Of a stretch of DNA of 41,213 bases, positions 5,186 to 30,237 are shown in pieces. The position numbers and the translations under genes were made by a program. Position 1 is the stretch's first letter. Each line of letters starts with the position of its first letter. The notes under the pieces are model-generated. The model did not search any database. It had not been told where the DNA came from and saw only the letters and a list, made by a program, of their open reading frames with translations. Where the stretch lies: positions 1 through 41,213 of IMG/VR virus record IMGVR_UViG_3300036104_000012; one strand, 5' to 3'. The stretch comes from a virus.

Positions 5186-7677
5186 CAGCGAGCCCTCAGA
5201 AATGCTGTGATGGTGCGGTCGAAGAGCTGGATCCCGCTCGTCGCGCCCTCCCATGTCAGCAGGATGGTGTGGCTGCCAGCGGCCAAGCTCACCGGGAAGG
5301 TGAAGTTCGGGTAGTCATTGCCAAAGGTCCCACCACGGGAAACGGTCAGCGTGCTGTCGATGTAGACACGGAAGGTGTGGGCCACGGCGCCGGAGGCATA
5401 GCCATGCGCCGCCGCAAAGGTCACCACACCGATACGGGTATCAGACAGCGTGAATGACATCGAGACCGCATTCTGCTCTGTCGCGTTCCCCGTCAGCGTG
5501 GTCAATGCGGTGGCGCTCACATGCGTGGTGATGGCGTCGGTCTGCACAGCCGAGGTCGGCACGCTGAGGTTGGCCAGGTCTCCCGCCACAACCTGCCCTG
5601 GCCCTGCCACCGCCTCGGCCGACATTCCACTGATATTGCCGCTGCGGTCTACCGCCTTCACGGCATAGCGGAAGTTCCCGGCACCTGGCGCCAGGCCAGT
5701 GCGCAGGAAGTTCCGGGCATAGGTCTCGCCGATCAGGGTCCAGCTGCTGCCGGTGGTGTCCGGCCTCTCAAAGACCTGATAGCGGTCGATATCGCTGGGC
5801 GGCGTGCCATCCCACTGGATCTGCACCCCACGGAAGGTAGAAACCGCCCCGATGCTCGACGCCGTGGAAGGCACCCCGGCATCCGCCACAGCCGCGGTGC
5901 TGGCGCTGGCGGAGGTCACGCTGCGCGCCAGCGCGCTCACCGCCACCAGCCGCACCTCATAGGTCGTGCCCGCGACCAGCGGCCAGAGCACATAGCGCTG
6001 GTCACCCACCGGCGTCAGCTCGCGCGACCAGGCGCCACCGGCCTCGCGCCACTGCACCTCTATCTGGGTGACGAAGGCATGCGACACGGCCGTCCAGGTG
6101 ACCACGATGGAGGGGATGAGCGAGCCATCGGCGTTCAGCACCGTGCTGGCGGTCAGCGTCGGCGTGCCCGGCGTGGGCAGAGTCAGCGGGTCGATCAGCG
6201 TCGTGTCGGGCGGGCTCGGGGCAGAATAGGCATAATCGTAGACCCAGGCGTAGGTGCTGGAGGCCTCGGCCTGCATCTCCACCATCACCACGCCGCTCTC
6301 AGGCTCATACTCCCAATCGATGACGCGCATCGGCTTGGCATCGAGCCCGAGGTCGGGGTGGGTGAGTGCCACCATCTGCCAGACGCAGAGCCGCAGCGCC
6401 GCGTACTTGAGCGGCACCTTCACCTTCAGCGACTGGCGCGCGCGCAGCAGCAAGGTGCGGGCGAGGCGCTGGGCGCGGATGTTATCCGTGGTGAAGGGAA
6501 GCTGGATATCTTTCCAGACCCGCTCACCGCCATCCTGGGCATCGTATCCGGTGTCGAAGACAGCCCCGAATTCGCCGGCCTGCCAGTTTCGCGCCGGATC
6601 GATGAAGGTGCCGCGGACCCCGTTGAACAGCTCCCGTCGGGCGGCGCGCGGCGTGGCCACGCATTCACCCGCCATATCAGCCGGGCCGATGCTGGCCGTG
6701 GGGGCGGAATAGACCGCGCCATGCAGCCGGTAGCGGCCCTGCACATAGACCAGCGCCCCGCCGCCGGCCGAGAGCATATCCTCCATGATGGAGAGCGGCG
6801 CGCGGTCCAGCTTGAACCCACCCGCGCAGGTGAAGCGCACCTGGGTGGTACCATCGGCCGCGATCTGCACATTCTCATCGCTGAGGTTGGCGGCGGCCGA
6901 GAAGCTGTCGAGGTCGAGCTCATTGTCCGCGCAGGCAAGGCCATAGCTGTTGCGCAGGTAATCCAGCACGCAGAGCGCCCAATTGTCGGTGTAGCCGGTG
7001 CCGCCGGAGCGCGGGTCATAGATGTCGCTCTTGCCGCGCAGCTCGAAATCCAGGCTGTTCAGCCCCGGCATCCGCTCCTGGTCGTATTCGAGGCGGAGAT
7101 AGACATAGGTGCAGCCGAGCAGGGCATGGGCGGTGGTCCAGCCATCCGGGCTTTCGGAGGCGAGGGTGGAGGAGCCGGCGGTCTGATCGCCATGGAATTT
7201 CTCCACCCGCACCCGACCGCGCTGGGGATGGTCGGAGCGGGTGACGTTGCCGGCGCCGTCGCAATCGGTGGAGCGGATGGCCTGGCCGTTTAGCCAGACG
7301 ATGTCGATCTGCTGGGTTTTGTGGGTGGCCAGCACCACCACCAGGTGGAGATAGCGCAGATTGGCGCCGGAGCTGGCGGCATAGACGATGGCGCCGCTGA
7401 CGCGGCAATAGCCATAAATGATCTGGCGCGGTTCAACCGAGCCACGGATGAGTTGCTTGCGGTCCTCAGCCATGCCTGAGGATGTCGGCCGCGCAGCCTT
7501 GGGCTTGTTGATGGCACCCATGACGATGCTGGCGCCCAGAGAAACGACGGTTCCGATGATCCCCGCGACGAAGGTCGAGCTCAAGCCGACTGAGGCGCCT
7601 ATGACCAGCGCCAGACCGCTGGCTTCGGCGGCAATCCCTGCTGCAATCGCAACAACAACGGGGATAATCTGCGGCAT
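5185..7677 (-). CDS. Tail tip / host specificity protein (J-like)
   Basis: The 830-aa protein has a hydrophobic Gly/Ala-rich N-terminus (about 1-55), then AARPTSSGMAEDRKQLIRGSVEP and IIYGYCRVSGA, typical of phage lambda J-like tip proteins. A central beta-rich body is followed by two fibronectin type III-like domains around residues 510-690 (ALVTQIEVQWREAGG-like and SDIDRYQVFERPD segments). The C-terminal ~100 residues form a beta-sandwich-like domain that could contact the host surface. It follows the NlpC/P60-like gene by one base, as in lambda (K, I, J). I infer that it forms the distal tail tip and contributes to receptor binding. Confidence 0.8.
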   Translation of the reverse strand: MPQIIPVVVAIAAGIAAEASGLALVIGASVGLSSTFVAGIIGTVVSLGASIVMGAINKPKAARPTSSGMAEDRKQLIRGSVEPRQIIYGYCRVSGAIVYAASSGANLRYLHLVVVLATHKTQQIDIVWLNGQAIRSTDCDGAGNVTRSDHPQRGRVRVEKFHGDQTAGSSTLASESPDGWTTAHALLGCTYVYLRLEYDQERMPGLNSLDFELRGKSDIYDPRSGGTGYTDNWALCVLDYLRNSYGLACADNELDLDSFSAAANLSDENVQIAADGTTQVRFTCAGGFKLDRAPLSIMEDMLSAGGGALVYVQGRYRLHGAVYSAPTASIGPADMAGECVATPRAARRELFNGVRGTFIDPARNWQAGEFGAVFDTGYDAQDGGERVWKDIQLPFTTDNIRAQRLARTLLLRARQSLKVKVPLKYAALRLCVWQMVALTHPDLGLDAKPMRVIDWEYEPESGVVMVEMQAEASSTYAWVYDYAYSAPSPPDTTLIDPLTLPTPGTPTLTASTVLNADGSLIPSIVVTWTAVSHAFVTQIEVQWREAGGAWSRELTPVGDQRYVLWPLVAGTTYEVRLVAVSALARSVTSASASTAAVADAGVPSTASSIGAVSTFRGVQIQWDGTPPSDIDRYQVFERPDTTGSSWTLIGETYARNFLRTGLAPGAGNFRYAVKAVDRSGNISGMSAEAVAGPGQVVAGDLANLSVPTSAVQTDAITTHVSATALTTLTGNATEQNAVSMSFTLSDTRIGVVTFAAAHGYASGAVAHTFRVYIDSTLTVSRGGTFGNDYPNFTFPVSLAAGSHTILLTWEGATSGIQLFDRTITAFLRAR

Positions 7678-17233: not shown

Positions 17234-17611
17234 TCAGCCCTGCATGGTGTGCTGAGAGAACAGCACCCGAATGATGTCGCCCGAAACGCCAGCCTCGTAG
17301 GCGAAGCCAACGACACGGTTGTTGACGCCTGCGGATGGGGCGGCGGCCACGCCGGCGCCATTGGCGTCGGAGGTGATCGCGGCGCCCGCGGCCACGGTGC
17401 CGCCCAGCACCACCGGATGCAGGCCGGAAAGCCCAAGGCTCATCCGCTCGCCGGCGGCGGCATTGCCGCCCGTGGTGCGGTTGACGCCCACGATCAGGTC
17501 GGTCGCGGCGGTGGCCAGGACCATCTGGCCCGCTGTGCCGCCGGGCTTCACCAGGCGGTTTTCACCAACGGCGCCCCCGGCGGTGGAGGCAATGACGGAA
17601 AACACATTCAT
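17234..17611 (-). CDS. Capsid decoration-like protein
   Basis: This 125-aa, Gly/Ala/Val-rich, beta-type protein (GQMVLATAATDLIVGVN, VLGGTVAAGAAITSD) resembles the DUF2190-like or lambda D-like head stabilisers that sit between protease/scaffold and major capsid genes. It overlaps the protease gene by four bases and precedes the capsid by nine. No enzymatic motif is present. Its role is inferred from position and composition. Confidence 0.65.
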   Translation of the reverse strand: MNVFSVIASTAGGAVGENRLVKPGGTAGQMVLATAATDLIVGVNRTTGGNAAAGERMSLGLSGLHPVVLGGTVAAGAAITSDANGAGVAAAPSAGVNNRVVGFAYEAGVSGDIIRVLFSQHTMQG

Positions 17612-18735
17612 GCGGCGTGTCCCTGCGTAACGGCCGAGATGGCCTCGGAGATGGAGGTCTGGAGCCCTTCAGCGGCGCGGCGACTGATATAGGCCTGGGC
17701 GAGTTCACGGATCTGATGGGAGCTGTCAGGGTCGGCCAAGGCCACGGCCTCACCGCCCGCGACCTGGCCGAAGGCGACCATCTTGGGTTGGCGCTCCAGC
17801 AACTCGCGCAGCGCGGCGCGCGGGCTGCGCGGCTCGCCCTGGCTGAAGGCGACCATGTCGGCGCCCTCGGCCGGTAGCGCGGCCAGCAGGGCGAGGGTGT
17901 CGGCACGGTTGACGGGCAGCGCCCGGCCCTCGGCCTGCAGCCGGTCCAGGAAGGCCGCATCCTCGGCGGCGCGCAGCGCGGCCTGGCCCTGGGCGAAGGT
18001 GGCGCGCTGGCGCACCAGCTCGGCACGCTCGGCCTCGACGGCGTCCTTCTCGGCCTGCAGGCGCTGCCGCTCGGCAGCGAGCGCCGCCTCTTGGGTGGGG
18101 TCCACCGGGGTCTCCTTCGGACGCTGGGAATAATCGGGGCCGGAGGACATCTCCTCGGGCTCGGGAATGATCATGGCGAGCAAGTCGATGTCGCTGCTGG
18201 GCGCCACGCGGTCGGCAGCCTCCTGGCCGGCGGAGCCGATCATCCACTCACGAAACCTGCGCCACAGCGATGCGTTCACACTCTGCTGAATTGGGGCCAT
18301 CGAAAATCTGACGGCGACGAAGGCCGCATCGGCGGCGAAGGTTGCGGGCTTGAGGCCGGTCACCGCAGGCAGTTGCGCACCCAGGAAGCCGACATGGCGC
18401 AGCGCCCACTGGCCGGGCGTGGGGTTGTGCGCCTCGTGAGGCAGGAAGAGGGCGGCGCTGACGTGGCGAAAGCGGCCATCGCGGACGGCCTGGGCGAAGC
18501 TCGGCTCCACCTGGTCGATCTCGGCCACCAGCAGATCGCCATCGGCGCGCAGGCTCTGCACCCAGCCATAGGCCGGCGCGTCCGCGGCCGGGTGGCCCAG
18601 GACCACGGGCGCCAACTCCTTGTGCTGGCTGTAGCCGGCGGCCATGGCGGCGATATCGGCGCGCGAGAAGGTGCGGCGAACGCCGGCGCCATCGGTGTGC
18701 GTGCCGGCGCGGAAAATCTCGATGGTCTGCGGCAT
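17608..18735 (-). CDS. Mu gpI-like prohead protease with C-terminal scaffold
   Basis: The 375-aa protein starts MPQTIEIFRAGTHTD; the ATG at 18735 is chosen over an in-frame TTG at 18765. Residues about 1-140 match the Mu-like protease domain (RTFSRADIAAMA, PVVLGHPA, and the HVSAALFLP segment typical of gpI). The rest is a charged coiled-coil region rich in Ala, Glu and Arg (about 205-260) that would act as an internal scaffold. As in Mu, scaffold may also be made from an internal start. It processes prohead proteins during head assembly. A dyad element typical of this phage's late promoters lies 75 bp upstream. Confidence 0.85.
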   Translation of the reverse strand: MPQTIEIFRAGTHTDGAGVRRTFSRADIAAMAAGYSQHKELAPVVLGHPAADAPAYGWVQSLRADGDLLVAEIDQVEPSFAQAVRDGRFRHVSAALFLPHEAHNPTPGQWALRHVGFLGAQLPAVTGLKPATFAADAAFVAVRFSMAPIQQSVNASLWRRFREWMIGSAGQEAADRVAPSSDIDLLAMIIPEPEEMSSGPDYSQRPKETPVDPTQEAALAAERQRLQAEKDAVEAERAELVRQRATFAQGQAALRAAEDAAFLDRLQAEGRALPVNRADTLALLAALPAEGADMVAFSQGEPRSPRAALRELLERQPKMVAFGQVAGGEAVALADPDSSHQIRELAQAYISRRAAEGLQTSISEAISAVTQGHAA

Positions 18736-18809
18736 CGGGTGAATGGGCTTCCAGATGGGTTGCAACGGCGTGCTGTGATGTGCACCCTATGCGCGCCATG
18801 GAATGGCTT

Positions 18810-18830
18810 TCAGGCCGACATCTGTCGGCC
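18810..18830 (-). promoter_or_regulatory. Putative late-activator site upstream of protease (PI-like)
   Basis: GGCCGAC-N4-GTCGGCC is a perfect 7-bp dyad (18813-18830 on the plus strand). With its flank TCAG it shares 18 of 21 positions, in the same orientation, with the element at 29813-29833. It precedes the gpI-like gene by 75 bp, where Mu has the C-activated PI promoter. A weak -10-like CATAGG lies at 18791-18786. Binding by the Mor/C-like protein is inferred. Confidence 0.55.
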
Positions 18831-18902
18831 CTCCACGCCCCTCATCCGGCTGCTGTTATGCGCCCGCGGGTGACACCGCCTTGGACGTTTCCTCCCGAAC
18901 TC

Positions 18903-18940
18903 GGGGCGCTGCTGGTGACGGTGGCGCCCCGTCTTTTTTT
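18903..18940 (+). terminator. Intrinsic terminator, plus strand
   Basis: GGGGCGC (18903-18909) pairs with GCGCCCC (18924-18930) over a 14-nt loop and is followed by GTCTTTTTTT. This is a strong intrinsic terminator for rightward transcription. No plus-strand gene lies upstream of it, so it may end a short antisense or small RNA starting near 18780-18850, or insulate the moron at 18997. Confidence 0.7.
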
Positions 18941-18996
18941 GGTGCGGGAGCATTGGTCGTCTGGCACGCTGCCCAGCACACAACGCGGAGCGACCC

Positions 18997-19386
18997 ATGC
19001 ATACCAGCCTCTACGTCATCGGCGGCCTGTTGACGCTCGGCGGCATCGCGATCGTCGGAAATGCCGGCGGCCTGAACACGCAGAATGTCATGCAGCAGGC
19101 GGTGCAATTCATTCAAATCCAGACCGGCGCCATCATCAGCCTTGCTGGTGCCGTCTTCCTCGCCGCAGGCGCCATCGTCAGCGCGATGACAAGCCGCTCG
19201 GTGCTCACGCAGAGCCGGCTTGATGATATCCATCAGGTTCTTCGCCGGATGGCTCCAGACCCAGTGGTGCATGGGCCGACCGCGTACAAAAAGCCTGCAG
19301 GCGTGCTGTCGCCGGATTTGAGCAAAGAACGGGTCGGGCCGGTCATCCCCGCCGGGATCCCTCGTCCGCCTTCGCGACTAGGCTGA
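18997..19386 (+). CDS. Moron: small two-helix membrane protein
   Basis: This 129-aa ORF runs against all neighbouring head genes. It has a good RBS (GGAG six bases before ATG) and two hydrophobic segments, about residues 5-23 (LYVIGGLLTLGGIAIVG) and 43-65 (GAIISLAGAVFLAAGAIVSAM), then a charged, Pro-rich cytoplasmic-type tail. I recognise no family. Position between the protease and MuF genes, opposite strand and a terminator just upstream all suggest an independently expressed moron, perhaps acting in the lysogen, for example in superinfection exclusion. The function is a guess. Confidence 0.65.
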   Translation: MHTSLYVIGGLLTLGGIAIVGNAGGLNTQNVMQQAVQFIQIQTGAIISLAGAVFLAAGAIVSAMTSRSVLTQSRLDDIHQVLRRMAPDPVVHGPTAYKKPAGVLSPDLSKERVGPVIPAGIPRPPSRLG

Positions 19387-19400
19387 TCACCGCCGCCGCC

Positions 19401-19472
19401 CTATATCTCCCGGCGTAGCCGGTCCCGAATGCGCTCGACCGGCTGGGTGATCCGGCCCTGGTAGTCGGCCAT
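19401..19472 (-). CDS. Possible 23-codon ORF after MuF gene
   Basis: MADYQGRITQPVERIRDRLRREI ends at TAG (19401). It looks protein-like (amphipathic C-terminal helix) and lies just after the MuF stop, where Mu-like phages often carry an additional small gene before the protease. There is no good RBS. It may be a remnant left when the plus-strand moron was inserted. Confidence 0.25.
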   Translation of the reverse strand: MADYQGRITQPVERIRDRLRREI

Positions 19473-19501
19473 CCAGGGAGGGCCTGGCGCTCCTCCACCG
19501 G

Positions 19502-20776
19502 CTACACCGCGCCCGCCAGCACCTCGTACACAGCAGGCGCCCTCAGCACCTCACGCTCCACCAGGCCGCCCGATTTGATGGCGTTGAAGGTCAGCGCGAA
19601 CCGCTCGGAACCCTCCCTGACCTTCTGCCGGTAGCCGAGATGCACCACGAGCTTCGCGCCATCCCGCGCATCAGCGCCGGTGGGCGTGAAAACCAGCAGG
19701 ACATCACCATCGCGCTTGTCGCGCAGGATGGCGTCCGGATTGGCCACGATCGCGGGTAGCCGCAGCAGGTCGGCCTCACTGAGCCCCGCGCCGCGGGCCT
19801 GCTTCGAAGCGCGGCCCATGTGCAGCAGCGCATCGGCCGTCACCATGATATCCGGGTCGCCCGCCCCCTCGGCGCCGCCGGGCAGCTGCGCCAGCACATC
19901 GTCCGGCAGCGTCCCGACCTTGCGGAAAGTGCCGTCCGACTTTCCGGCATCGAGCACCGCACGCGCCCAGAGCGGGAATGGCGTCGGTTCCGGCGGCACC
20001 GCCGGCATCGCGCCGATCGGCGGCGGCACCAGCGACGGCCGCGCCGCCTCCGCGATATCCGCCGGCGCCCGCTTCGCCGCCTCAGCTGCCCGAGCCTGCG
20101 CCTGGCGCAGCTGCGCCCCCTTGCCGGGATTGTACCCGAAGCCCGGGTCGATCCCCTCCGGCACATCGATCACGCCGCGCCCCGTCACCTCGCGCTTGAC
20201 CATGGTGACGCCCGGCGGCGGGTCGCTCACCTTCCACCCGCGCTTGTCCAGGTCACGCTGCGCCAGGCTCACCACGCTGCAGCGGCAGTTCCAGCCATTG
20301 GGCGGGAAATGCGTGTTCCACCAGGCATGGCCCACCGGCAGGATTGTGCCGTGCCATTCGCGGTGCAGCAGCCGGGTGCGGTTGTCCATCACCGCCGAGT
20401 AGCGAAGGAACGGCCGGTCGGCCTTCACCTGCTGGATCTGCGCCCAGCGGCCGGCCGAATAGGCCATGCGCAGGTTCGTCTCGTAGATCACGCGCGAGCG
20501 CCAACCCGGAGATCCGCGATAGGTCCAGCCATAGCGTTTAGCGATGGAGGCGAATTGCCGCTGGAACTCGTCCTTGGTCATTTCTTTGGCGATGGCCTCA
20601 TCCACCGCCGCCCTGAAATCGGCCAGCATCGCCACGTTGCGCGCGCCGGCGACGACGAAGCTGACCTGATGCGCCTCGTGCCAGGTGTCGGTCCAGGTGT
20701 CGGTGCCGAGCAGCTGCTTCGCCCGGAAAAAGGCGATGGCCTCGCTGAACGGCACCTGGCCGATGCGCGGCGTCAT
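19502..20776 (-). CDS. Head morphogenesis protein, MuF-like, with possible C-terminal nuclease domain
   Basis: The 424-aa protein has the MuF domain (PF04233) at about residues 70-170: YETNLRMAYSAGRW, DNRTRLLHREWHG, and GWNCRCSVV near 161-169. A Pro/Ala linker (about 225-270) leads to a C-terminal domain (about 308-420) with ALLHMGRASKQ, LLRLPAIVANPDAIL, VLLVFTP and KLVVHLGYR. That layout recalls the PBECR nuclease-like domains fused to MuF proteins in many phages. The N-terminal part acts in head assembly at the portal; a nuclease activity for the tail is inference. It overlaps the small gene before it by an ATGA. Confidence 0.8.
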   Translation of the reverse strand: MTPRIGQVPFSEAIAFFRAKQLLGTDTWTDTWHEAHQVSFVVAGARNVAMLADFRAAVDEAIAKEMTKDEFQRQFASIAKRYGWTYRGSPGWRSRVIYETNLRMAYSAGRWAQIQQVKADRPFLRYSAVMDNRTRLLHREWHGTILPVGHAWWNTHFPPNGWNCRCSVVSLAQRDLDKRGWKVSDPPPGVTMVKREVTGRGVIDVPEGIDPGFGYNPGKGAQLRQAQARAAEAAKRAPADIAEAARPSLVPPPIGAMPAVPPEPTPFPLWARAVLDAGKSDGTFRKVGTLPDDVLAQLPGGAEGAGDPDIMVTADALLHMGRASKQARGAGLSEADLLRLPAIVANPDAILRDKRDGDVLLVFTPTGADARDGAKLVVHLGYRQKVREGSERFALTFNAIKSGGLVEREVLRAPAVYEVLAGAV

Positions 20777-20985
20777 GGCGCCTCCAACACGGCGTCAGGC
20801 CCTGCAGATGCAGGGGGGTTAGTTATGGGGTTTTTAAGCGTTCTTAAGAGGCCATCAGGCGCCTCTGAGGGTGTCGGGGCGATAGGGAGCCGCGCCAGAG
20901 CCCTCTGGCGCCTCCTGCGTGCCCTGGCGCGGGATTTCGCGATCAGGCCCCGCCGGCGCGGCTTGGGCGCATCACGCCACGCCAT
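20773..20985 (-). CDS. Small basic protein between portal and MuF genes
   Basis: A 70-aa ORF starts 14 bases inside the end of the portal gene and ends in an ATGA overlap with the MuF gene, so it fits the operon exactly. The N-terminal half is extremely basic (RARARRRRQRALARL), the rest Pro/Ala-rich. I know no function. Arg-rich shadow ORFs are common in this GC-rich DNA, but the coupling on both sides and the otherwise empty interval favour a real gene. Confidence 0.5.
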   Translation of the reverse strand: MAWRDAPKPRRRGLIAKSRARARRRRQRALARLPIAPTPSEAPDGLLRTLKNPITNPPASAGPDAVLEAP

Positions 20986-22486
20986 CGGTCAGGTCCGATC
21001 GGCCCGCCAGGTTGGCCAGCGCCAGCGCCTCGCCCATCAGCGCCGCCATCTTCTCGGTGCCCAGGTCGGGGAACAGCTTGGTCAGGCCGTCGCGGAACTC
21101 CACGAGGCTGGCGCTGCGTTCCAGCAGCCCACGCACCTGGTCCAGCGCCGCATCCTGCAGGGTGCCGGTGATCTGGTCGAGCTGCGCGGCCAGAAGGTCG
21201 GCCGTGTCGCGCGGCTCGCTGGCCTGGGCAAAGGCGGCGGCAGGCGCCAGGCCGGGCAGCAAGCGGTTGAGGCCGGGTGGGGGTGCCTTCAGCTCCCAGC
21301 CCTCGCCATAGGTCTCGGTGATGTAGTCCAGCGTGGGGGCGAAGCCGAGGCTGCCGATCTTCACGTCGCGCTCGGCGCGGGCGTTCAGATCCTCGTCCTG
21401 ATCCACCTCCCACCAGATCTTCGGCAGGGGCCCGGCATAGCCCGGCGCGTTCAGCTCCACGATCCAGCGCACCAGCGTGGCGTTCATGGTGCCCGAGAGG
21501 CTGTCGGCATCGGCCTTGGTGATTTCCAGGCGCACCTGGTTGTGCACCTGGCCCAGCGCCCGGCTGCCATTCTGCCCGGCATTGGTGGAGAGCGTCTCGC
21601 CCAGCACGATCTTGGCGATCTCGTCATCCATATAGGCGGCCAGCGTCTGGTAGCTGTCGAAGCTGCCGGCGCGCTTGGCCTCCAGCAGCTCCACCACCAT
21701 GCCCTCGGGGAAGGTGACGCCGGTGTCGCTGGCGATTGCGCTGACGGCGGCCAGCAATTCATCCTGCTGCTCGGCCGAGGAGCCCGTGGGATAGCGGCCG
21801 ATGACGGTGGGCTGGCCGAATTTCTCCAGCGCCGCCATCCAGAAGCCCACGCCCTGGCGCTTGAAGTAGACCGGCCAGAACAGCCGATTGCCCAGGCCCA
21901 GCCCCCAGGGGTCGCCATAGCGCCCGCCGAAGCGGTGCACGATGAACTTGCGGGCGGGCACCTCATCGCCATCGAGCATGCTCTGCCGCGTCAGCAGCTT
22001 CAGCATGGGCGTGCCGTCCTGGCCCACCTCGAAGCCGAAGCGCCGCGGGTTGCGCGGGATCAGGCCGGCGGGCAGCAGGCGGTCGCCGCGCTGCTCCCAC
22101 ATCACCTCCAGCACGGACAGGCCGGTCAGCAGCGCCGCCAGCGCATCCTCCACCACCCGGTCGAAGGCCAGCGCCTCGATCGCCTCGCGCACCAGCTCGG
22201 CCACGGCGGCGGCGGCGGCGCTCTCATCGCCCGGCTTCACCGACCATTCGCGGCCGACCAGCGCCAGGCGCCGCTTCTGCAGCACCGCGCTGACCTGCGG
22301 GTCGCGCTCGAGATCCTCATAGACCAGCAGGCCCGCGCTACCGCCGCGGGTGGACAGCACCGTATCGGTCGGCAGCAGCCGCCGGCCATAGATGCCGCGC
22401 GTGGGGTCGCTGAGGACGGAGGCGAATTCGCGCTTCAGCGCCACGCGGCCGAGGCGGCCGGGCACCTGGTCATTGCTGCCGCTCAT
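20972..22486 (-). CDS. Portal protein (Mu gp29-like, DUF935)
   Basis: The 504-aa protein shows the DUF935 pattern: DPQVSAVLQKRRLALVGREW near residues 62-81, VLEVMWEQRGDRLLPAGL, FIVHRFGGRYGDPWGLGL, and MDDEIAKIVLGETLSTNAG in the second half. It forms the dodecameric ring at the unique vertex through which DNA is packaged. It overlaps the large terminase gene by four bases, the usual Mu order of gp28 then gp29. The C-terminal helical extension (about 410-500) is typical of the family. Confidence 0.9.
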   Translation of the reverse strand: MSGSNDQVPGRLGRVALKREFASVLSDPTRGIYGRRLLPTDTVLSTRGGSAGLLVYEDLERDPQVSAVLQKRRLALVGREWSVKPGDESAAAAAVAELVREAIEALAFDRVVEDALAALLTGLSVLEVMWEQRGDRLLPAGLIPRNPRRFGFEVGQDGTPMLKLLTRQSMLDGDEVPARKFIVHRFGGRYGDPWGLGLGNRLFWPVYFKRQGVGFWMAALEKFGQPTVIGRYPTGSSAEQQDELLAAVSAIASDTGVTFPEGMVVELLEAKRAGSFDSYQTLAAYMDDEIAKIVLGETLSTNAGQNGSRALGQVHNQVRLEITKADADSLSGTMNATLVRWIVELNAPGYAGPLPKIWWEVDQDEDLNARAERDVKIGSLGFAPTLDYITETYGEGWELKAPPPGLNRLLPGLAPAAAFAQASEPRDTADLLAAQLDQITGTLQDAALDQVRGLLERSASLVEFRDGLTKLFPDLGTEKMAALMGEALALANLAGRSDLTDGVA

Positions 22487-24051
22487 CGGTCGATCCCCAT
22501 GAATTCACGTGATGCCTGGCGGGCGATGCGGCGCTGGCCGGTGCTGCGCCATTCGATGCGCACCTCGCCCGTCTTGGTGGCGGCATGGGCCAGCAGGTGG
22601 GCCACCAGGCTGTCACCGTGCCGGCCCTCGCCATCGGACCCCTTGAAGCGGGCATCCGAGATGCCGGGCAGGCCGGCGCGCAGGATGGCGGCGCGGTGGT
22701 CGGTCAGCACATCCTCGCCGGCGGGCAGGATATAGCTGCGGTCCTCCAGCGCGGCGCGATAGGTGGGGAAGTGCTCGGCATACCAGCCCTGGGTCGCCTT
22801 GACGCAGGTGATGCGAGCCTCGCCATATTTCTGCTGCGCCGCTTCGGCATGCGCCTGGCCGTTGCCGCGTGCATCGAGCGCTCCGGTAAAGCGGGTGAGT
22901 TCGGCCAGGATGCCGTCGAGGATCAGCCACTGCACATCGAAGGGGATGCGCCGCAGCTCCACCTGGAATTCGCAGCGCCACACCGCCGGGCGCTTCTCCT
23001 CGCCCACCGCGATGACCGAGAGGTCACCATCGCGGCCCATATCCTGCCCGAAGACGTGGCGCCGGCTGCGGTCCAGCGCGCGCAGCAGCGGCGCTAGGTT
23101 CTCCTCGAACCACACCGCCGCCTCGTCCAGCCGGTTGGGGTCGAGATACCAGCCCTCGCGCTGCGACCAGGTGATGATGGGGATGCCGGGCTGCTGGGAG
23201 GCGGCGACCAGGCTGCGCGGCAGATAGGCGCCGGAGCTGCGGCGGGGGATCGCCTCCAGCTCCTCGTCACGCGCTTCATGCCGGGGGCCGTAGCTGCGCA
23301 GGATCCTGTTCAGCCACTCATCCTTCGCGGCGGGCGAGGGCTGCCAGCCGCGGATGAGGCAGACCCGCTCATAAAGCCCATTGGCCACGGCCGCGCTGAA
23401 GGGAATGCGGTGGATGGAGTAGTCGTAAAGGCCGGCGCGGCTGTCCTTGATCAGCTGGTTGAAGGCGTTGTCCTCGCCATTGTGGGTGGAGATGATGCGG
23501 ATGCGGCCACCCCAGATCAGCAGGGCGTTCACCGCGTCCAGCACCGCGGCGACATCGTCATGGAACGCCGCCTCGTCGATCACCACGGTGCCCTGCAGGC
23601 CGCGGATATTCGCGGGGCGGGAGGAGAGGGCGACGACGCGGAAGCCGCTGCGAAAGCTCACCCGATAGGCGGCGATCTGGCGGCTGGAGCCGTCGTCGCG
23701 GCGATCCTCGAAGAGGAATTCGTCGACCTGGTGCAGCTCCTTTGCCACCACGCGGGCGAAGTGCGCGACGTAGCGGATGAACTCCAGGCCCTTCTCCTTG
23801 CTGTCGCCGATGTAGAAGATGTTATCGCCGCCGGCGGATTTGCTGGCGGCAGCGATGAGCGTGTCGTCCAGCGCCTCGGCATAGGTGATGCCGGTGCGGC
23901 GGCCCTTCTCGCAGATCTTCAGGGCGCTCTTATCCTCCAGCCAGTCGACCTGGTGCGCCATGAGGATGCCATCGGCCAGCGGGTCGTGGTCGCGCGGCAG
24001 CTCGGCCGGCGGCAGAAGATTGGCAATGTCGGCGGCCGAGGGCATGGTCAC
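22483..24051 (-). CDS. Terminase large subunit (Mu gp28-like)
   Basis: The 522-aa packaging motor has an ATPase domain with an atypical Walker A (EKGRRTG, residues 48-54) and Walker B VVIDEAAF (156-163), then a nuclease domain with GQDMGRDGDLS and a late SDGEGRHGDSLVAHLL segment supplying acidic residues. It translocates DNA into proheads and cuts it, by headful packaging in Mu-like phages. The ATG at 24051 has a weak RBS; a CAGGAGG lies further upstream in the 45-bp gap. Unusually, its normal neighbour, the small terminase, lies 3.6 kb upstream beyond an inserted cassette. Confidence 0.9.
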   Translation of the reverse strand: MTMPSAADIANLLPPAELPRDHDPLADGILMAHQVDWLEDKSALKICEKGRRTGITYAEALDDTLIAAASKSAGGDNIFYIGDSKEKGLEFIRYVAHFARVVAKELHQVDEFLFEDRRDDGSSRQIAAYRVSFRSGFRVVALSSRPANIRGLQGTVVIDEAAFHDDVAAVLDAVNALLIWGGRIRIISTHNGEDNAFNQLIKDSRAGLYDYSIHRIPFSAAVANGLYERVCLIRGWQPSPAAKDEWLNRILRSYGPRHEARDEELEAIPRRSSGAYLPRSLVAASQQPGIPIITWSQREGWYLDPNRLDEAAVWFEENLAPLLRALDRSRRHVFGQDMGRDGDLSVIAVGEEKRPAVWRCEFQVELRRIPFDVQWLILDGILAELTRFTGALDARGNGQAHAEAAQQKYGEARITCVKATQGWYAEHFPTYRAALEDRSYILPAGEDVLTDHRAAILRAGLPGISDARFKGSDGEGRHGDSLVAHLLAHAATKTGEVRIEWRSTGQRRIARQASREFMGIDR

Positions 24052-24096
24052 GGTTGCGCGGCCCGGATGAACGATGCCTCCTGGGCGCGCACCACG

Positions 24097-24879
24097 TCAG
24101 CCCACCTGGGGCGTGAACGGCAGACCATAGGTCTGCACGAAATGCCGCTCGATGCTGGCCAGAAGGGCGACGTTGGCGGAGCTCAACAGGTTGGTCCCCT
24201 GGAGCCACATGACGTCCGATATGCGGCCGGTGTAGATCAGGGAGTTTGGAGGGGTCACGTTGAATGCTGTCCCCAACCAAAGAGGGTTGGCTGCGATTGG
24301 CGAAGCCAGCGTTGAGGCGACTGAATTCTGCGTGACGCCGTTCACCCGAGAATATGCCCGCGTAGTGTCGAAAGCGAACACCCCAAAAACATACTGCGTC
24401 GGGTCGGCAATTAGTGTGGCAACCTGCGCACTGCCCACCTGCCACGCCAATAGCCGGCCGCCTGATGTATAACTGCTGATATACATGTGGTCGCTGGAGC
24501 CTGTTCCGCGCTTGGACAGCAGGTATTCTCCCACTGCGCCAAGCCGAAACAGCGCGACCACGCTGAAAATCGCCGCCGTGTTGAAGGCGGTGCCATCGCC
24601 GACGTTGTAGAACGGATTGGTCGCACCGAAGTCGAGGTTGGCATACCCGCCCGGCCCGGTCAGCGGCAGTGTCGCGGACTGCCCAGCGTTGGTCCGCATG
24701 AAATGCTTTGCCGCAGCTTTTCGGTCGCTGATCTGGCTGACCAGCCCACCCGACGCCACGCAATCGAGCGGGTCGCCCCGCCACCAGTTGGAGATGCGGC
24801 TGTCAGCCAGCAGGAGCGCATCGGTGTCAGTCACCAACGCACGTGCGGCGGTGAATGTGGTGTTCGTGATGAGGGGCAT
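24097..24879 (-). CDS. Concanavalin/LamG-like lectin protein, virion-associated
   Basis: The 260-aa protein reads as a jelly-roll lectin of the LamG type: IFSVVALFRLG, EYLLSKRGTG, ATLIADPTQYVFGVFAF, NPLWLGTAFN, and YTGRISDVMWLQG before a C-terminal helix ending VQTYGLPF. Similar modules attach to phage fibres and bind glycans. It follows the esterase-like gene by two bases, so both are probably displayed together on the virion. Codon use has lower GC than nearby head genes in many stretches, which suggests recent acquisition. The substrate is unknown. Confidence 0.65.
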   Translation of the reverse strand: MPLITNTTFTAARALVTDTDALLLADSRISNWWRGDPLDCVASGGLVSQISDRKAAAKHFMRTNAGQSATLPLTGPGGYANLDFGATNPFYNVGDGTAFNTAAIFSVVALFRLGAVGEYLLSKRGTGSSDHMYISSYTSGGRLLAWQVGSAQVATLIADPTQYVFGVFAFDTTRAYSRVNGVTQNSVASTLASPIAANPLWLGTAFNVTPPNSLIYTGRISDVMWLQGTNLLSSANVALLASIERHFVQTYGLPFTPQVG

Positions 24880-24881
24880 GG

Positions 24882-26597
24882 CTACAGTCCCGAGGTGATG
24901 TTGAGCGGGCAGAGGTAGTGGCGAATTTCCGTAGGTGTCGCCAAACCGAGCCGGCTGGATGGCGATGTGACCCCCGTCCCGATGCAGACGGTCCCGCGCG
25001 CCGCTGCCCAGACAGTGTTGCCGCTACTCGCAAAGGGCAGGTTGCCGTCGTAGGCGTAGGAGATCGCCTTGCTTGTGCCGGTTGGGGTGCCGCTCAGTGT
25101 GACCACCACCGCCGGATTGCCGCCAACGCTGGTGCCAAAAGCAACGCTGCTGACCGTCGCACTGACCGTGCTGTCGGTGTAGACAAAGCCCTGGCCATCC
25201 ACTGCCGCAACCCAGGTGCTATCCAGCGCGAGTTGCGCCGCAGTGCTGCCCGGCGGCAGTTGCAGGGGGATGGTGATGACAGCCCCGGAGCGATATGGCG
25301 CTTCGGTCGGGTGCTTTCGCAGTGGGTTCCATGTCGCGCCCTGTCGCACCACTTTGTCGTAGATGTGCCCCAACATGTCGCCATGCACCGCGCGCCCCAA
25401 CTCGGTCAGGTGGATCGCCTCTTTCCGTGTTGGGAAGCCCGATACTGTAGTGCCCTCCCACCACTGCGGGCACTGATACATCGGGCCGGCGCAAATCACA
25501 CCGATGATGCTGTCAATGCCGGCTTGTTCCAATCGCTGCGGCATGGCGGTGTTGTATCCGCCGTTATTGTTGGTGATGGTAACGGCGATGATCGGGTTGG
25601 CTGCCTGCCCCGTCGCCGCCTTGATGTCTGGCACCAACGTGCCGACGAGCGTTGCGAACAGTGTCGACCAGCCGGAGCTAGGGCCGCTCTCACCCTGGAT
25701 GATATTCAGCATCGGCACGGTCACGCCCGTCTTGCCGTAGGCGGCTGCAGCCGAGACAAGGCGCCCAAGCGTGGTGATGAGATTGGTGTATGCCGTCTGG
25801 CCGGACACAAAAGACGAAAGCGGCTGACCGCCGTACGAGACGGCGTGCATGATAGCGCCGGGGGTGCGGACCTTTCGGTCCCGCGCCAGTTGTTCCTGAG
25901 CGAAGCCGGTCCAGGCGCTTACGAAACAGCCCGTTGCTGCGAGCTGGGCCAGCGGCAGAAGCGTGGTTGCATCGCTGTCAGCCAGCGCGGTTTCGCTTTG
26001 GATAACCACCGGTGACCCACTCAGCGCGTGGTTGGGTTTTGCCGCTGTCAGGTATGTCGCCGTCTCGCCCGACTTCTGCACATTGGACTGGCCATAAAAC
26101 GCATGGATTTCCAGCGGGGCCGAGGTGAAAACTGGCGAGGCAGTCGGGCTGCCAGTGGCCGGCTGCGTGACTTCGTAGGTCAGCAGATCGGCGTCTTGCA
26201 CCAATGCCAGCAATCGGCCGCTCGCCGCGCCCCGGCGCACATTGCCCACCCACCATTGCAGTGATGCCGTCGTCAGGGCGGTCGGCGCCAGATACAGCTG
26301 CTCGGCGAGATAGACCTGCGACGCCGGCGCCAGCGTCATCTCCAGCCGGCCGGCGCCGTCCACCGCCAAGGCGGCAGTGCCGAAAGCGTCGGTCGCGATC
26401 ACCTCGGCCGATGTGCCCGTCCGGTAAGGCGTCACACCTTGCAGGCGCAACTCGTTGACGGTGATGTCGATGTCACCCGCGGGGCGCAGTCCAAAATATA
26501 CGCGCCCGGCGGCGTCGAAAAGCAGATAGCTGTAGCGATGACTGCTGCGATATGGCGTGGAGGGTAGCGGCAGAGGCGGAGGATATGTGACCGGCAT
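24882..26597 (-). CDS. Virion carbohydrate esterase-like protein (SASA/SGNH type)
   Basis: The 571-aa protein has an N-terminal beta region (about 1-155) probably for virion attachment, then a domain with FYGQSNVQKSG (GQSN at 169-172, catalytic S171), QGES at 301-304 and a late IHLTELG with H396. These match the sialate O-acetylesterase/SGNH motif series. The C-terminal ~130 residues are another beta domain. I infer removal of acetyl groups from host surface polysaccharide during adsorption. The usual Asp of the DxxH box is Glu (E393). The start at 26597 has GAGG too close for an ideal RBS, but coupling to a mini-ORF ending at 26601 is possible. Confidence 0.7.
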   Translation of the reverse strand: MPVTYPPPLPLPSTPYRSSHRYSYLLFDAAGRVYFGLRPAGDIDITVNELRLQGVTPYRTGTSAEVIATDAFGTAALAVDGAGRLEMTLAPASQVYLAEQLYLAPTALTTASLQWWVGNVRRGAASGRLLALVQDADLLTYEVTQPATGSPTASPVFTSAPLEIHAFYGQSNVQKSGETATYLTAAKPNHALSGSPVVIQSETALADSDATTLLPLAQLAATGCFVSAWTGFAQEQLARDRKVRTPGAIMHAVSYGGQPLSSFVSGQTAYTNLITTLGRLVSAAAAYGKTGVTVPMLNIIQGESGPSSGWSTLFATLVGTLVPDIKAATGQAANPIIAVTITNNNGGYNTAMPQRLEQAGIDSIIGVICAGPMYQCPQWWEGTTVSGFPTRKEAIHLTELGRAVHGDMLGHIYDKVVRQGATWNPLRKHPTEAPYRSGAVITIPLQLPPGSTAAQLALDSTWVAAVDGQGFVYTDSTVSATVSSVAFGTSVGGNPAVVVTLSGTPTGTSKAISYAYDGNLPFASSGNTVWAAARGTVCIGTGVTSPSSRLGLATPTEIRHYLCPLNITSGL

Positions 26598-26600
26598 ACC

Positions 26601-26684
26601 TCACCAATCCCGCGCCGCTATGCAGCAGCCGCTGGTGATCCGCAGCAGTGGTTGCGTCCGAAGCGGCCCTCCGCGCAGTCGCAT
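26601..26684 (-). CDS. Possible 27-codon leader ORF before esterase gene
   Basis: An ATG overlaps the stop of the preceding gene (TGATG), and the ORF MRLRGGPLRTQPLLRI... ends at a TGA three bases before the esterase start. Both junctions follow the coupling style of this phage, so it may be a real peptide or a translational relay. No family is recognised. Confidence 0.35.
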   Translation of the reverse strand: MRLRGGPLRTQPLLRITSGCCIAARDW

Positions 26685-27004
26685 CAGACGATACCCCGCC
26701 CGACAGCGCACTCCACCACCGTCGAGCCGCTGGCCGTGCGGATGCCGATACTGTCGATGCCCTCGGGTAGGTTGAATTCCTGGATGGCCCCCGCGCGGAG
26801 GCGAAGCGCGCCTGCCCCGGAATTAGCAACGGTAAAGCTGGTTCCGACCCCGCCGAGGAGGAACAGGTCAGACGCGCCGGTGTTGTTGATCAAGATGCCT
26901 GTCCCACCGGTCGGTACCAGTCCGGCCAGCGAGATGTAGCTCGTGGTCGTGGTGGCCGTGGCCGACAACAGATTTGCCGCCACACTCGGAAGCGCGAGCG
27001 CCAT
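26684..27004 (-). CDS. Small beta-rich protein of fibre cassette
   Basis: The 106-aa protein is Ala/Thr/Gly-rich with alternating hydrophobics (TSYISLAGLVPTGGTGILI, NNTGASDLFLLGG, GAGALRLRAGAIQEFNLP), typical of a compact beta-sandwich virion decoration or fibre-attachment domain. It lies between the vWA gene and the esterase gene. No catalytic residues are evident. The function is inferred from the company it keeps. Confidence 0.55.
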   Translation of the reverse strand: MALALPSVAANLLSATATTTTSYISLAGLVPTGGTGILINNTGASDLFLLGGVGTSFTVANSGAGALRLRAGAIQEFNLPEGIDSIGIRTASGSTVVECAVGRGIV

Positions 27005-27007
27005 ACG

Positions 27008-27643
27008 TTACCTCCATCTTCCAAGATCATGTTGCTCGGAGGGAGCGCCGCTCACTGCCGCCAGCTCCATCGCCAGCTTCCGCCGCATCGCCCGGGCGAA
27101 GCCACTCCAATCCTCGGCCGCCAGCGCGAAGCCGCCGGGGGTGACCGCGTTCTCGCGCAGCCAGTCCGCAGGGCTGCCCCCGGGTAGCCGGCCGATGCCG
27201 ATGGCGTTCACCCGCACCCCGCGCGCCGCCGCGGCATCCCGCGCGCGGGTCACCGGCGCCGCGTCCGCATCACCGTCCGAGGAGATGTCGACCACCTGCT
27301 GCTCAGCCTCGCAGGGCGCGGCATCGAGCGCCTCCAGCGCGCCATCCAGCGCCTCACCCAGCCGCGTGCCGCCGTATTGGGTGCGCGGCGCCTGGCGCAG
27401 CGCGGCGGCGAAGCCCTCGGCCGTCTCGGCCCCCGTCACGATCTGCCAGGGCACCAGCGGGCGGCTCTCATCCGAGAAGGCGATGGCGGTGATGGCCACC
27501 GCGCCCTGCCGCTCGATCACCCGCACCACCGCCGAATCTGCCAGCGCATCGGCCGTGCCCGTCGCCTGCAGGCGCCAGCTCTCGCTCGAGACCGAGCCCG
27601 AGGCATCCAGCAGCAGCACGAGGGCAACGGCGCAGCTGATCAT
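27008..27643 (-). CDS. von Willebrand factor A protein (DUF1194-like)
   Basis: This 211-aa protein begins directly with a beta strand and the metal-binding MIDAS motif DASGS (D13, S15, S17). Later segments (YGGTRLGEALDGAL with the MIDAS Thr, VVDISSDGDAD, and RGVRVNAIGIG) complete the vWA fold and match DUF1194. Bacterial DUF1194 proteins usually have a signal peptide; this one does not, so it is cytoplasmic or virion-bound. It overlaps the small terminase gene by four bases. A role in binding a virion protein or host surface through a metal ion is possible. Its position in a head operon is unusual. Confidence 0.7.
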   Translation of the reverse strand: MISCAVALVLLLDASGSVSSESWRLQATGTADALADSAVVRVIERQGAVAITAIAFSDESRPLVPWQIVTGAETAEGFAAALRQAPRTQYGGTRLGEALDGALEALDAAPCEAEQQVVDISSDGDADAAPVTRARDAAAARGVRVNAIGIGRLPGGSPADWLRENAVTPGGFALAAEDWSGFARAMRRKLAMELAAVSGAPSEQHDLGRWR

Positions 27644-28188
27644 GCCGCGTCCCTCACCCGCCCCACGCCCAGCACCTCGCGCCGGATCTGCGCGATCTGC
27701 GCCTCGCCCAGCCCGGCCTCGCGCGCCGCACCGGCCGCGGCCTCAGCGGCCTCGCCCTTGATGCGCGCGCCGACCCGGGCCTCGGCTTCGATCTTCAGCT
27801 TGTCGAGCGAGCCGAGATCCTTCAGGGCGCGCGCCAGCATGGCCAGGTCCTTCGGGCCCGGCGCCTCGCCGTCTTCCTGCATCTCCATCTGGGTGCGGAA
27901 GGCCAGCAGCTTCAGCATCTCGCCCAGCATCCGGCCGATATCGCCATCGGGGTCGGCGCGCAGCTGGCGTACCCATTCGCCCGCGATCTCCTGCGTCTCC
28001 CGGAATTTCTGGAGCCGCTCCACGCTCACCTTCCGGTGCCGCCCCATGGCGGACCGGCTGACCATGTGGCCGGCGCCATTCACCATCGTCACCAGCTCAT
28101 CCACCGTCGCGCGGCCCTGCTGAATGGCGCGCTCCAGCGCCTCCAGCAGGTGGTCCGGCAGGGCGGAGATGCTGGATTTACGGGGCAT
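27640..28188 (-). CDS. Small terminase subunit-like (Mu gp27, DUF3486)
   Basis: The 182-aa helical protein starts MPRKSSISALPDHLLEALERAI and continues with a helix-turn-helix (GHMVSRSAMGRHRKV), matching DUF3486, the presumed small terminase of Mu-like phages. The C-terminal half is helical and Ala-rich (LAMLARALKDLGSLDKLKIEAEAR-type). It recognises the packaging site and recruits the large subunit. It is coupled to the winged-helix gene upstream by TGATG and to the vWA gene downstream by ATGA. Confidence 0.85.
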   Translation of the reverse strand: MPRKSSISALPDHLLEALERAIQQGRATVDELVTMVNGAGHMVSRSAMGRHRKVSVERLQKFRETQEIAGEWVRQLRADPDGDIGRMLGEMLKLLAFRTQMEMQEDGEAPGPKDLAMLARALKDLGSLDKLKIEAEARVGARIKGEAAEAAAGAAREAGLGEAQIAQIRREVLGVGRVRDAA

Positions 28189-28490
28189 CAGCGGCGCACG
28201 GGGCGCTTGACGCCGGGGATGGTGGCGCGGCCGGCGGCGGCATCCTGCCCACGTGCCAGGATATGCCCCACGGCCAGGCCATGCAGGTCGCTGGTCTCCA
28301 CCAGGCCCTGCTCGGCCAGCCAGGCCAGGTCGGCGCGCACCTGGTCCAGGCTCGCCTCATGGCCATAATCGGGCAGCGCCGCCTGCAGCAGCGCCTCGTT
28401 CGCCGCGCCGCCGGCCGAGGCAGCGAGCAGCAGCAGTATCGACAGGCGCCGGTCCTCCGCCATGCGCTGCTGGTAGGAGATGCCGCTCAC
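28188..28490 (-). CDS. Winged-helix protein (Mu gp26-position)
   Basis: The 100-aa protein begins MSGISYQQRMAEDRRLSILLLL and contains HEASLDQVRADLAWLAEQGLVE, a clear winged-helix pattern, ending GRATIPGVKRPVRR. Closely similar proteins occur in the same place, between DUF2730 and DUF3486, in many Mu-like phages. It could assist DNA packaging or regulate. It is coupled on both sides (ATGA from DUF2730, TGATG to DUF3486). Confidence 0.75.
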   Translation of the reverse strand: MSGISYQQRMAEDRRLSILLLLAASAGGAANEALLQAALPDYGHEASLDQVRADLAWLAEQGLVETSDLHGLAVGHILARGQDAAAGRATIPGVKRPVRR

Positions 28491-28900
28491 TGGTGGTTTT
28501 CCCGCAGATGGGCGTCGATCAGGTCGAGCCGGCGCGCGATGCCGCCGACCTGCGCCTCCATCCGCTCCACGTTTTCGCCCATCTGCTGCGTCACGCCGCG
28601 CACGGCCTGGCCGACGACATGAAGCTCGCCGCGCAATTCGGCGATGGCGACGTTCAGCGTGTTCACCTGCGCTGCGGAGGGCAGGTGCTGCATTGCCGTC
28701 TCGATGGTCATCAGGCGGTCGCCATGGGCGCCGACCCTGGCGGCCAGCAGCTCCATCGCCGTCTTGCTCGCCGCCTGGTCCATGGCTTTCTGCACCAATT
28801 GCGTGAGGTGCTGGCGGAATGCCCAGCCCATCCAGCCGAGCACCAGGGTGCCCAGGAAAATCAACGCGGGTTGGCTGCGGATGAGGAGATCGACGTCCAT
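28487..28900 (-). CDS. DUF2730 family membrane coiled-coil protein (Mu gp25-like)
   Basis: The 137-aa protein has one N-terminal transmembrane segment (about residues 11-29, ALIFLGTLVLGWMGWAF) followed by a long coiled coil (about 50-130), the layout of DUF2730. In Mu-like phages it follows the lysis genes, and a role in lysis or as a spanin-like factor has been suggested but is unproven. No separate Rz/Rz1 pair is visible here, which makes such a role more plausible. A GAGGG lies seven to nine bases before its ATG. Confidence 0.75.
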   Translation of the reverse strand: MDVDLLIRSQPALIFLGTLVLGWMGWAFRQHLTQLVQKAMDQAASKTAMELLAARVGAHGDRLMTIETAMQHLPSAAQVNTLNVAIAELRGELHVVGQAVRGVTQQMGENVERMEAQVGGIARRLDLIDAHLRENHQ

Positions 28901-28910
28901 CAGCCGGCCC

Positions 28911-29291
28911 TCAGACGCCGCTCAGCCGCGTCTGAATGATCCGCCGCAGGCCCTGCGGCGTGATGCCAAAATGCGCCAGGGCGTCAGGCACACGGGTGGC
29001 GACGTAGCCGGCCGCGCTGTCCACCGCCGTGTGCCAGTCGTCGGCCGTGGGCTTGGGCGCCTCGCCCACGGGACCGATGCGCGCCAGGCGGGCCTTCATA
29101 TCCGCCTCCGCCCAGCTCACCGCATTCTCGATCACCTCATTGAGGTAGCCCCGCACCTGCGCGTCATTCGACAGCCGCAGCCAATCCGCCGCGCGCTTGG
29201 CGGCATAGGAGCCCACCGCCAGCATGGCTGCGCCGAGCAGCGGCACCAGCTGGTCCAGCAGCGGGGCGAGGATGGAGATGAGGGTCTGCAT
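28911..29291 (-). CDS. Holin-like protein (LL-H holin type)
   Basis: The 126-aa protein has a hydrophobic N-terminus (ILAPLLDQLVPLLGAAMLAVGSYAA, about residues 7-31) and a helical soluble part ending HFGITPQGLRRIIQTRLSGV. This resembles the LL-H phage holin family. It starts two bases after the endolysin gene, the expected partner. I infer that it permeabilises the inner membrane to release or activate the endolysin. Confidence 0.65.
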   Translation of the reverse strand: MQTLISILAPLLDQLVPLLGAAMLAVGSYAAKRAADWLRLSNDAQVRGYLNEVIENAVSWAEADMKARLARIGPVGEAPKPTADDWHTAVDSAAGYVATRVPDALAHFGITPQGLRRIIQTRLSGV

Positions 29292-29293
29292 GG

Positions 29294-29779
29294 CTATGCC
29301 TTCGCGTTGAGCTTGATGCCGGCCAGCCGCATGGCCTCGTCGATCGTCGCATCGTCGTAGGGCTGCTGGCCGTTTTCCTGGCGGATAATGGCGCCGAGCA
29401 GAGGGCGCATCCTGTCGGGCTGGGTCAGATCGATCTCATCATCCGGCGCCACGCCGAGCGCCGCGGCGACGCGCGAGACGTAGCCGCGCGTGTCCTGCGC
29501 CTTGGTCGTACCATCGGGGAAGGTGTGCACCGGCGGGCACCAGCGGCCGATGATGCCGCGCACCGTGCGCAGCTTGTGCTGGCGCTGATAGGCCAGCAGC
29601 GTGACCGCCATGGCGCGGATCCCGAAGGCCGGGGTGGTGAAGACCTCGAACTCGATGTCATCGCCGGCCGCGAAGGGCGTTTCGCCCTGCCAGGCCGTGC
29701 GGCCACGCAACACGTTGCCCGGGTTGTTGTTCCGGATGCCGCGTGGAACGGCCTTCGAGCTAGGGCGGGTCTGGGACAT
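29294..29779 (-). CDS. Endolysin (lysozyme-like, P5 type)
   Basis: The 161-aa protein contains PRGIRNNNPGNV at residues 12-23, the signature start of phage P5-like lysozyme/transglycosylase proteins, followed by FAAGDDIEFEVFTTPAFGIRA and a helical body (AVTLLAYQRQH, RGYVSRVAAALGV). It would cleave peptidoglycan at lysis. No signal peptide is seen, so it depends on the adjacent holin. It is the first gene of the late run, directly after the Mor/C-like gene and a dyad element, just as lys follows C in Mu. The RBS is poor. Confidence 0.8.
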   Translation of the reverse strand: MSQTRPSSKAVPRGIRNNNPGNVLRGRTAWQGETPFAAGDDIEFEVFTTPAFGIRAMAVTLLAYQRQHKLRTVRGIIGRWCPPVHTFPDGTTKAQDTRGYVSRVAAALGVAPDDEIDLTQPDRMRPLLGAIIRQENGQQPYDDATIDEAMRLAGIKLNAKA

Positions 29780-29803
29780 GCGCGATCTTGTCGCGCGCGC
29801 AGG

Positions 29804-29833
29804 GGCCTGAACTCAGGCCGACATGCGTCGGCT
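29804..29833 (-). promoter_or_regulatory. Putative late-activator site before endolysin (Plys-like), overlapping palindrome
   Basis: GCCGAC-N4-GTCGGC (29817-29832) matches the site at 18810-18830 at 18 of 21 positions. It abuts the stop codon of the Mor/C-like gene and lies 34 bp before the endolysin start, the place of Mu Plys. A second perfect palindrome, GGCCTGAACTCAGGCC (29804-29819), overlaps it and could form a competing hairpin. A -10-like CAAGAT lies at 29790-29785. Confidence 0.55.
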
Positions 29834-30237
29834 CATGACGCGTCGAACGGCAATGAACCTTGCCGCAGACGGTCGTCGGTCGCAATCCTCTCGCGCAGCC
29901 GCTCGACCTGGCGGACATGCAGCGCGAGCTCGCGTGCGATCTCATTGGCGGAGCAGCCGCGCGCCGTCATCGCCCGCACCACATCCAGCCGGGCCTGCCT
30001 TGCCGCCCAGGCCGCCTTGGGCACGATGATGCGGGCATTGCGGTCGTGATGCTCGATCAGCCAGGCCAGCACGCCCATGCCGGAGTGCTGGGCCACGGGG
30101 TGGTTCGGCCGCGCCTCCACCGGCAGATGCAGATACTGCCCCCCGAAGCGCTGCGCGAAGGCCAGCGCCGTGGCCAAGCCATGCGCATCGGCCATTTCCC
30201 GCAGTAAATTCGGCAGCCAGGGGCGGCGCGGGGCCAT
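29833..30237 (-). CDS. Mor/C-family transcription activator
   Basis: The 134-aa protein fits the Mor/C family of Mu: N-terminal helical dimerisation part (WLPNLLREMADAHGLATALAFAQRFGGQYLHLP) with a conserved G-x-Y/HLP, then a C-terminal helix-turn-helix (RGCSANEIARELALHVRQVERL, about residues 95-117). Family members bind dyads upstream of phage middle or late promoters and recruit RNA polymerase. Only one such gene is present, so it may combine Mor and C roles. Two matching dyads, one touching its own stop codon, are its likely targets. ATG 30237 is chosen for conservation of MAPRRPWLP. Confidence 0.8.
   Translation of the reverse strand: MAPRRPWLPNLLREMADAHGLATALAFAQRFGGQYLHLPVEARPNHPVAQHSGMGVLAWLIEHHDRNARIIVPKAAWAARQARLDVVRAMTARGCSANEIARELALHVRQVERLRERIATDDRLRQGSLPFDAS

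Follow-up and report, generated by a model that had tools for sequence, protein, structure and literature searches.

The window, a viral DNA of 41,213 nucleotides that is the entire IMG/VR record IMGVR_UViG_3300036104_000012, shares with phage Mu the gene order activator, endolysin, packaging and portal, protease and capsid, and its portal, gpF, gp27 and GemA proteins have Pfam matches to Mu families. On the minus strand, a gene for a 134-residue protein with a C-terminal helix-turn-helix (29833-30237) matches PHROG 836, "late transcriptional activator" (E=1.6e-19), the endolysin gene (29294-29779) matches PHROG 873 (E=1.5e-53), and the gene for the gpI-like head maturation protease (17608-18735) matches PHROG 976 (E=6.1e-97). 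The host is likely a member of the Acetobacteraceae, because the closest terminase relative in the genome collection belongs to a prophage of Neoroseomonas alba (71%). A plus-strand open reading frame (ORF) of 755 residues (1623-3890) runs opposite to the late genes and contains about seven repeats of about 213 bp that encode DGFAD-type repeats, followed by glycine-aspartate-rich repeats; it is possibly a moron or a flanking host gene. Between the putative protease promoter and the gpF gene, the plus strand carries a strong hairpin that resembles a terminator and has a T run (18902-18931), followed by an ORF of 129 residues with hydrophobic stretches (18997-19386); both run against the late operon.

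Two matching dyads stand at the borders of these operons. The stretch 18810-18830 reads TCAGGCCGACATCTGTCGGCC and the stretch 29813-29833 reads TCAGGCCGACATGCGTCGGCT, and in a shared orientation they are identical at 18 of 21 positions. The dyad proper is GGCCGAC-ATCT-GTCGGCC on the protease side (18813-18830) and GCCGAC-ATGC-GTCGGC on the endolysin side (29817-29832); on the minus strand, that of the late genes, both read GCCGACnnATGTCGGCCTGA. Copy 1, a putative Plys-like operator (GCCGACGCATGTCGGCCTGA, 29813-29832, minus strand, dyad centre between 29824 and 29825), directly adjoins with its dyad the TGA (29833-29835) of the activator gene and lies 37 bp 5' of the ATG (29779) of the endolysin gene, the first gene after it. 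Copy 2, the putative PI-like member of the sequence pair (GGCCGACAGATGTCGGCCTGA, 18810-18830, minus strand, dyad centre between 18821 and 18822), has its dyad 78 bp 5' of the protease ATG (18735), which likewise opens the first gene after it. The whole record holds two matches with 0 mismatches and no third copy; the next-best site, with the reverse strand of one copy set aside, has 4 of 17 mismatches, for which about three sites per genome are expected by chance. The preliminary description of this DNA had reported the two dyads, their identity and orientation, the lack of a third copy, and their placement between the Mor/C-like stop codon and the endolysin gene and before the gpI-like protease; letters, coordinates, whole-record scan and PHROG matches all agree with it. 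A loose scan of the window for the arms alone remained at background, with no enrichment in GC-rich DNA, so the significance of the dyads rests on the exact pair and on its relatives. An overlapping palindrome at 29804-29819, GGCCTGAACTCAGGCC, was considered as part of the site and rejected, being not conserved in L006, L087 and L007.

These relatives are three contigs (L006/L086, L087 and L007) whose activators are 92, 80 and 72% identical to that of the window, L007 being the most diverged. Relatives with the same activator that lack the dyad were looked for and none was seen: all three have a matched pair, with a copy at each of the two places. In L006 and L087 the dyad is the same as in the window at both places. 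In L007 both copies are changed identically, with compensating changes in the arms (GGCTGACACCTGTCAGCC), and the dyad is GGCTGACACCTGTCAGCCTGA at both places, a two-sided change that preserves the base pairs in each copy. The L007 activator has a single substitution (E to H) in the helix HVRQVERL of the helix-turn-helix. Each of the L006, L087 and L007 records contains only two full copies. L007 also has two tandem GC-rich units of the CGCCGCGTTTGCTGCGCAAGCCGCGTCTGG type (5240-5312) on the 5' side of the operator at the activator end. A single similar unit lies 5' of its protease operator, the arrangement that would result if one promoter had received a longer block from the other.

The comparison was extended to Mu-like loci gathered from viral and genome collections, in which activator and protease genes were found with iterated profiles. 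Within each genome, the region after the activator was compared with the region before the protease, and the pair was scored by counting the symmetric base pairs that the two regions share letter for letter (maximum 9). Among 117 non-redundant loci with both genes, 36 (31%) reach a score of at least 6, which 1.7% of random regions of the same genome reach, and 15 reach at least 7, compared with 0 of 702 random same-genome comparisons; pairs taken across genomes score at least 6 in 2.7% of cases and at least 7 in 0.14%. All 36 matched pairs lie at most 330 bp after the activator stop codon and 40-230 bp before the protease. About two thirds of the 117 loci have no matched pair. The letters of the dyad vary by lineage and include CCCCGGAACTTGTTCCGGGG (L160), GGCCCGCCnCGGCGGGCC (L088, a Neoroseomonas alba prophage), CCGGTGACAnnTGTCGCCGG (L186), CTGACA-n-TGTCAG (L183 group), TGTAACCnnGGTTACA (L166), GTGAAAnnTTTCACCCTTA (L130, L155), ACCCGCACACCCGTGCGGGT (L256) and CTTTAAACGACTTTAAA (L152), among others. 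Mu and D108 give chance-level scores only, and Mu's own C sites are not recovered by the matched-dyad test, so that Mu does not serve as a positive control. A search of the open-access literature turned up no previous account of matched late operators that differ by lineage in Mu-like phages.

Other arrangements were also seen in the survey. Three loci (L197, L198 and L199) share CAACCTTCCCAATGTA-type sequences at both places, with poor dyads and without a -10 element at +32, which possibly represent another arrangement. In three Mu-like prophages of the Pasteurellaceae type, a third copy of a TTTAAA-type operator (L152:20494, L355:20989 and L343:21086) is located about 5.3-5.4 kb after the protease copy and about 75-80 bp 5' of a gene that resembles a tail assembly chaperone; the leader after it contains an inverted repeat that would cover an AAGGAG ribosome site.

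A pair of dyads could also arise by chance or belong to a dispersed phage or host repeat, and the loose dyad pattern is indeed common in GC-rich DNA. Such an origin is exceedingly unlikely after the survey of 117 loci and the spacing test described below, given that the window and each of the three relatives' records carry exactly two copies and that many lineages carry matched pairs of unrelated sequence.

The sites were further aligned on the dyad centre and scored for xAxxxT, the two most conserved positions of the sigma70 -10 element. A fixed rule was used, namely a score of at least 6 and one representative per activator lineage, without manual removal. The motif is found exactly 32 bp from the dyad centre at 25 of 34 sites from 17 activator lineages, where 0.8 would be expected per offset (P ~2e-33), and on the antisense strand at 2 of 34. 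Since the pairs had been selected by dyad match and position alone, without the -10 element, this spacing is independent evidence for directional activator sites, and it makes a promoter reading much stronger than position alone does. When the hexamer is set at -12 to -7, the dyad centre falls at about -44.5. In the window, the predicted -10 hexamer at 32 bp from the centre of copy 1 is GACAAG (29787-29792, minus strand), which matches the motif in its A at position 2, lacks the T at position 6 and is weak alone, as would fit an activator-dependent promoter; the corresponding hexamer in L007 is GACATT. For copy 2 the predicted hexamer is TAGGGT (18784-18789, minus strand), identical in L006, L087 and L007. 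A consensus scan for paired -35 and -10 elements found none at either window site. Both window sites show the arrangement expected of a Mor/C-dependent promoter, with a dyad near -43.5 upstream of a predicted -10 and no -35.

The location of both dyads at operon ends, together with their GC-rich hairpins, would also suit intrinsic transcription terminators that close the activator operon and the lysis-packaging operon, and D108 is annotated with terminators directly after mor and C. A T run follows the dyad in a few relatives (L160, L167), while the window dyads have no T tract and TTTTT follows only 4 of 41 sites at each of the two places. The dyad hairpin is not the favoured fold of the copy 1 RNA. 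Terminators require pairing, not identical letters at two distant places, and they leave the -10 at +32 and its direction unexplained, which makes terminators a highly unlikely account of the pair. In L160 and L167, where a T run comes after the operator at the activator end, this operator could double as the terminator of the activator transcript.

As for the protein that reads the dyads, the family profile of the activator matches Mu Mor/C relatives in a profile-profile comparison (97.8%, E=1.2e-12), and a profile built without the Mu rows still finds Mor (1rr7, E=1.1e-5). The Pfam Mor family (PF08765) is matched by 23 of 39 aligned family members, the window's own protein being without a match. 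An AlphaFold2 model was poor with 4 sequences and reached a pLDDT of 87.6 in a second run; Foldseek gave no significant match for the model, and Mor was not among the matches listed. Judged by these profile comparisons, the product of 29833-30237 is a divergent member of the Mor/C family, and the family HMM has this single match in the window.

This protein is linked to the dyad by the adjacent position of its gene, the Mor-like geometry of the sites, the presence of one operator type per activator lineage and the fact that operators differ when activators do, all of which point to the Mor/C-like protein as the reader. Where terminases are 65-80% identical and the activators unrelated, mean operator similarity is 0.41 (n=29), compared with 0.61 (n=23) where the activators are related. 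Mantel tests relate the distance between operators to that between recognition helices with r=0.51, or a partial 0.23 once the remainder of the protein is controlled for; the remainder, controlled for the helix, performs equally (0.22). Since the rest of the protein predicts the operator as well as the helix does, no specific helix-operator code is claimed, and such a code is a lead only. The association-based nature of the link and this lack of a stronger covariation with the helix would also be compatible with operators of another regulator, such as a phage repressor or a host factor. That possibility is nevertheless distinctly improbable: the dyad adjoins and co-occurs with the Mor/C gene, its geometry is that of Mor at Pm, operators differ where activators are unrelated despite 65-80% identical terminases, and a host factor would not be expected to acquire a new operator in each phage lineage.

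The best explanation is that the two dyads are operators of activator-dependent late promoters, one Plys-like and one PI-like, that are read by one Mor/C-family protein, and we regard it as very probable. A dimer of the 29833-30237 protein would most likely bind each dyad at a position centred near -44, where it would substitute for a -35 element and recruit the host sigma70 polymerase to the weak -10 hexamer 32 bp on. Recruitment at copy 1 would start the lysis-packaging operon, and at copy 2 the protease-capsid operon.

In Mu, a Mor dimer occupies a dyad from -51 to -36 of Pm, with its centre at -43.5, and replaces the -35 element (PMC4287176, PMC4390567). The Mu late promoters have related dyads to which C binds (PMC4287176), and C is needed at the lys and I promoters (PMC4461284). 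The window resembles Plys and PI in map position (after C and before lys; before I), in the dyad-symmetric putative activator site without a -35, and in having one Mor/C-family activator; it resembles Pm and Mor in a dyad centred near -43.5/-44.5 that would replace the -35, and in a presumed dimeric activator with a C-terminal helix-turn-helix. The proposal of a late regulon of the Plys/PI kind is strongly supported on the sequence level by the pair kept in relatives, the coupled change in L007 and the -10 at a fixed distance, and its further elements, a single Mor/C-type activator and a GC-rich operator unlike those of Mu, also stand, as one such gene was found in the window and the site differs from the Mu sites. 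The window operator is unrelated to those of Plys and PI, perfect or nearly so as a palindrome and nearly identical at both promoters, and the endolysin promoter has a start codon near its predicted +1. Mu has two proteins, Mor and C, with separate promoters, whereas one activator gene was found in the window, where two sites precede late genes and a search at the activator's own gene gave none. No third copy that could be an equivalent of PP or Pmom was found in the window, L006, L087 or L007 records.

From the hexamer position, transcription on the lysis side is predicted to start at 29779-29781 (minus strand), either on the endolysin ATG (29779) or 1-2 nt ahead of it, and that of the head operon at 18776-18778 (minus strand), which would give a leader of about 41 nt to the ATG at 18735 or of about 12 nt to a TTG at 18765. 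Across the survey, 18 of 34 sites have an ATG at the predicted +1, 44-46 bp beyond the dyad centre, compared with 2 of 34 on the antisense strand. This ATG starts the endolysin gene of the window and of the three relatives, and in many genomes it opens an ORF that heads the protease operon. The frequent start codon at the predicted +1 suggests, from spacing, that these late mRNAs, including that of the endolysin, are leaderless or nearly so.

Most of what is known of the textbook activator pair C and Mor comes from a single phage, Mu. Of more interest than the pair in the window itself is the wider pattern of matched operators that are specific to the lineage and keep a fixed distance to the -10. 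On balance, it seems somewhat probable that the Mor/C activators make up, together with their operators, a lock-and-key family that diverges rapidly. In this reading, each lineage would have a palindrome of its own that stays the same across its late promoters, one genome would suffice to predict the target, a recognition code might be derived (for example HERT-type helices with CTGACA, TETG-type with GCCCGC), and the late mRNAs of many lineages would be leaderless. The target of an activator would often be readable from the genome alone, as the mirror sequence of the lineage that is identical or nearly so at both switches. The matched-dyad rule could be used to find late promoters in many Mu-like phages and prophages so far uncharacterised, and the geometry predicts late mRNAs that depend on the activator, are often leaderless and have start sites specified to the base. 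The dozens of activator-operator pairs would be enough to test how specificity evolves when two distant promoters must change together.
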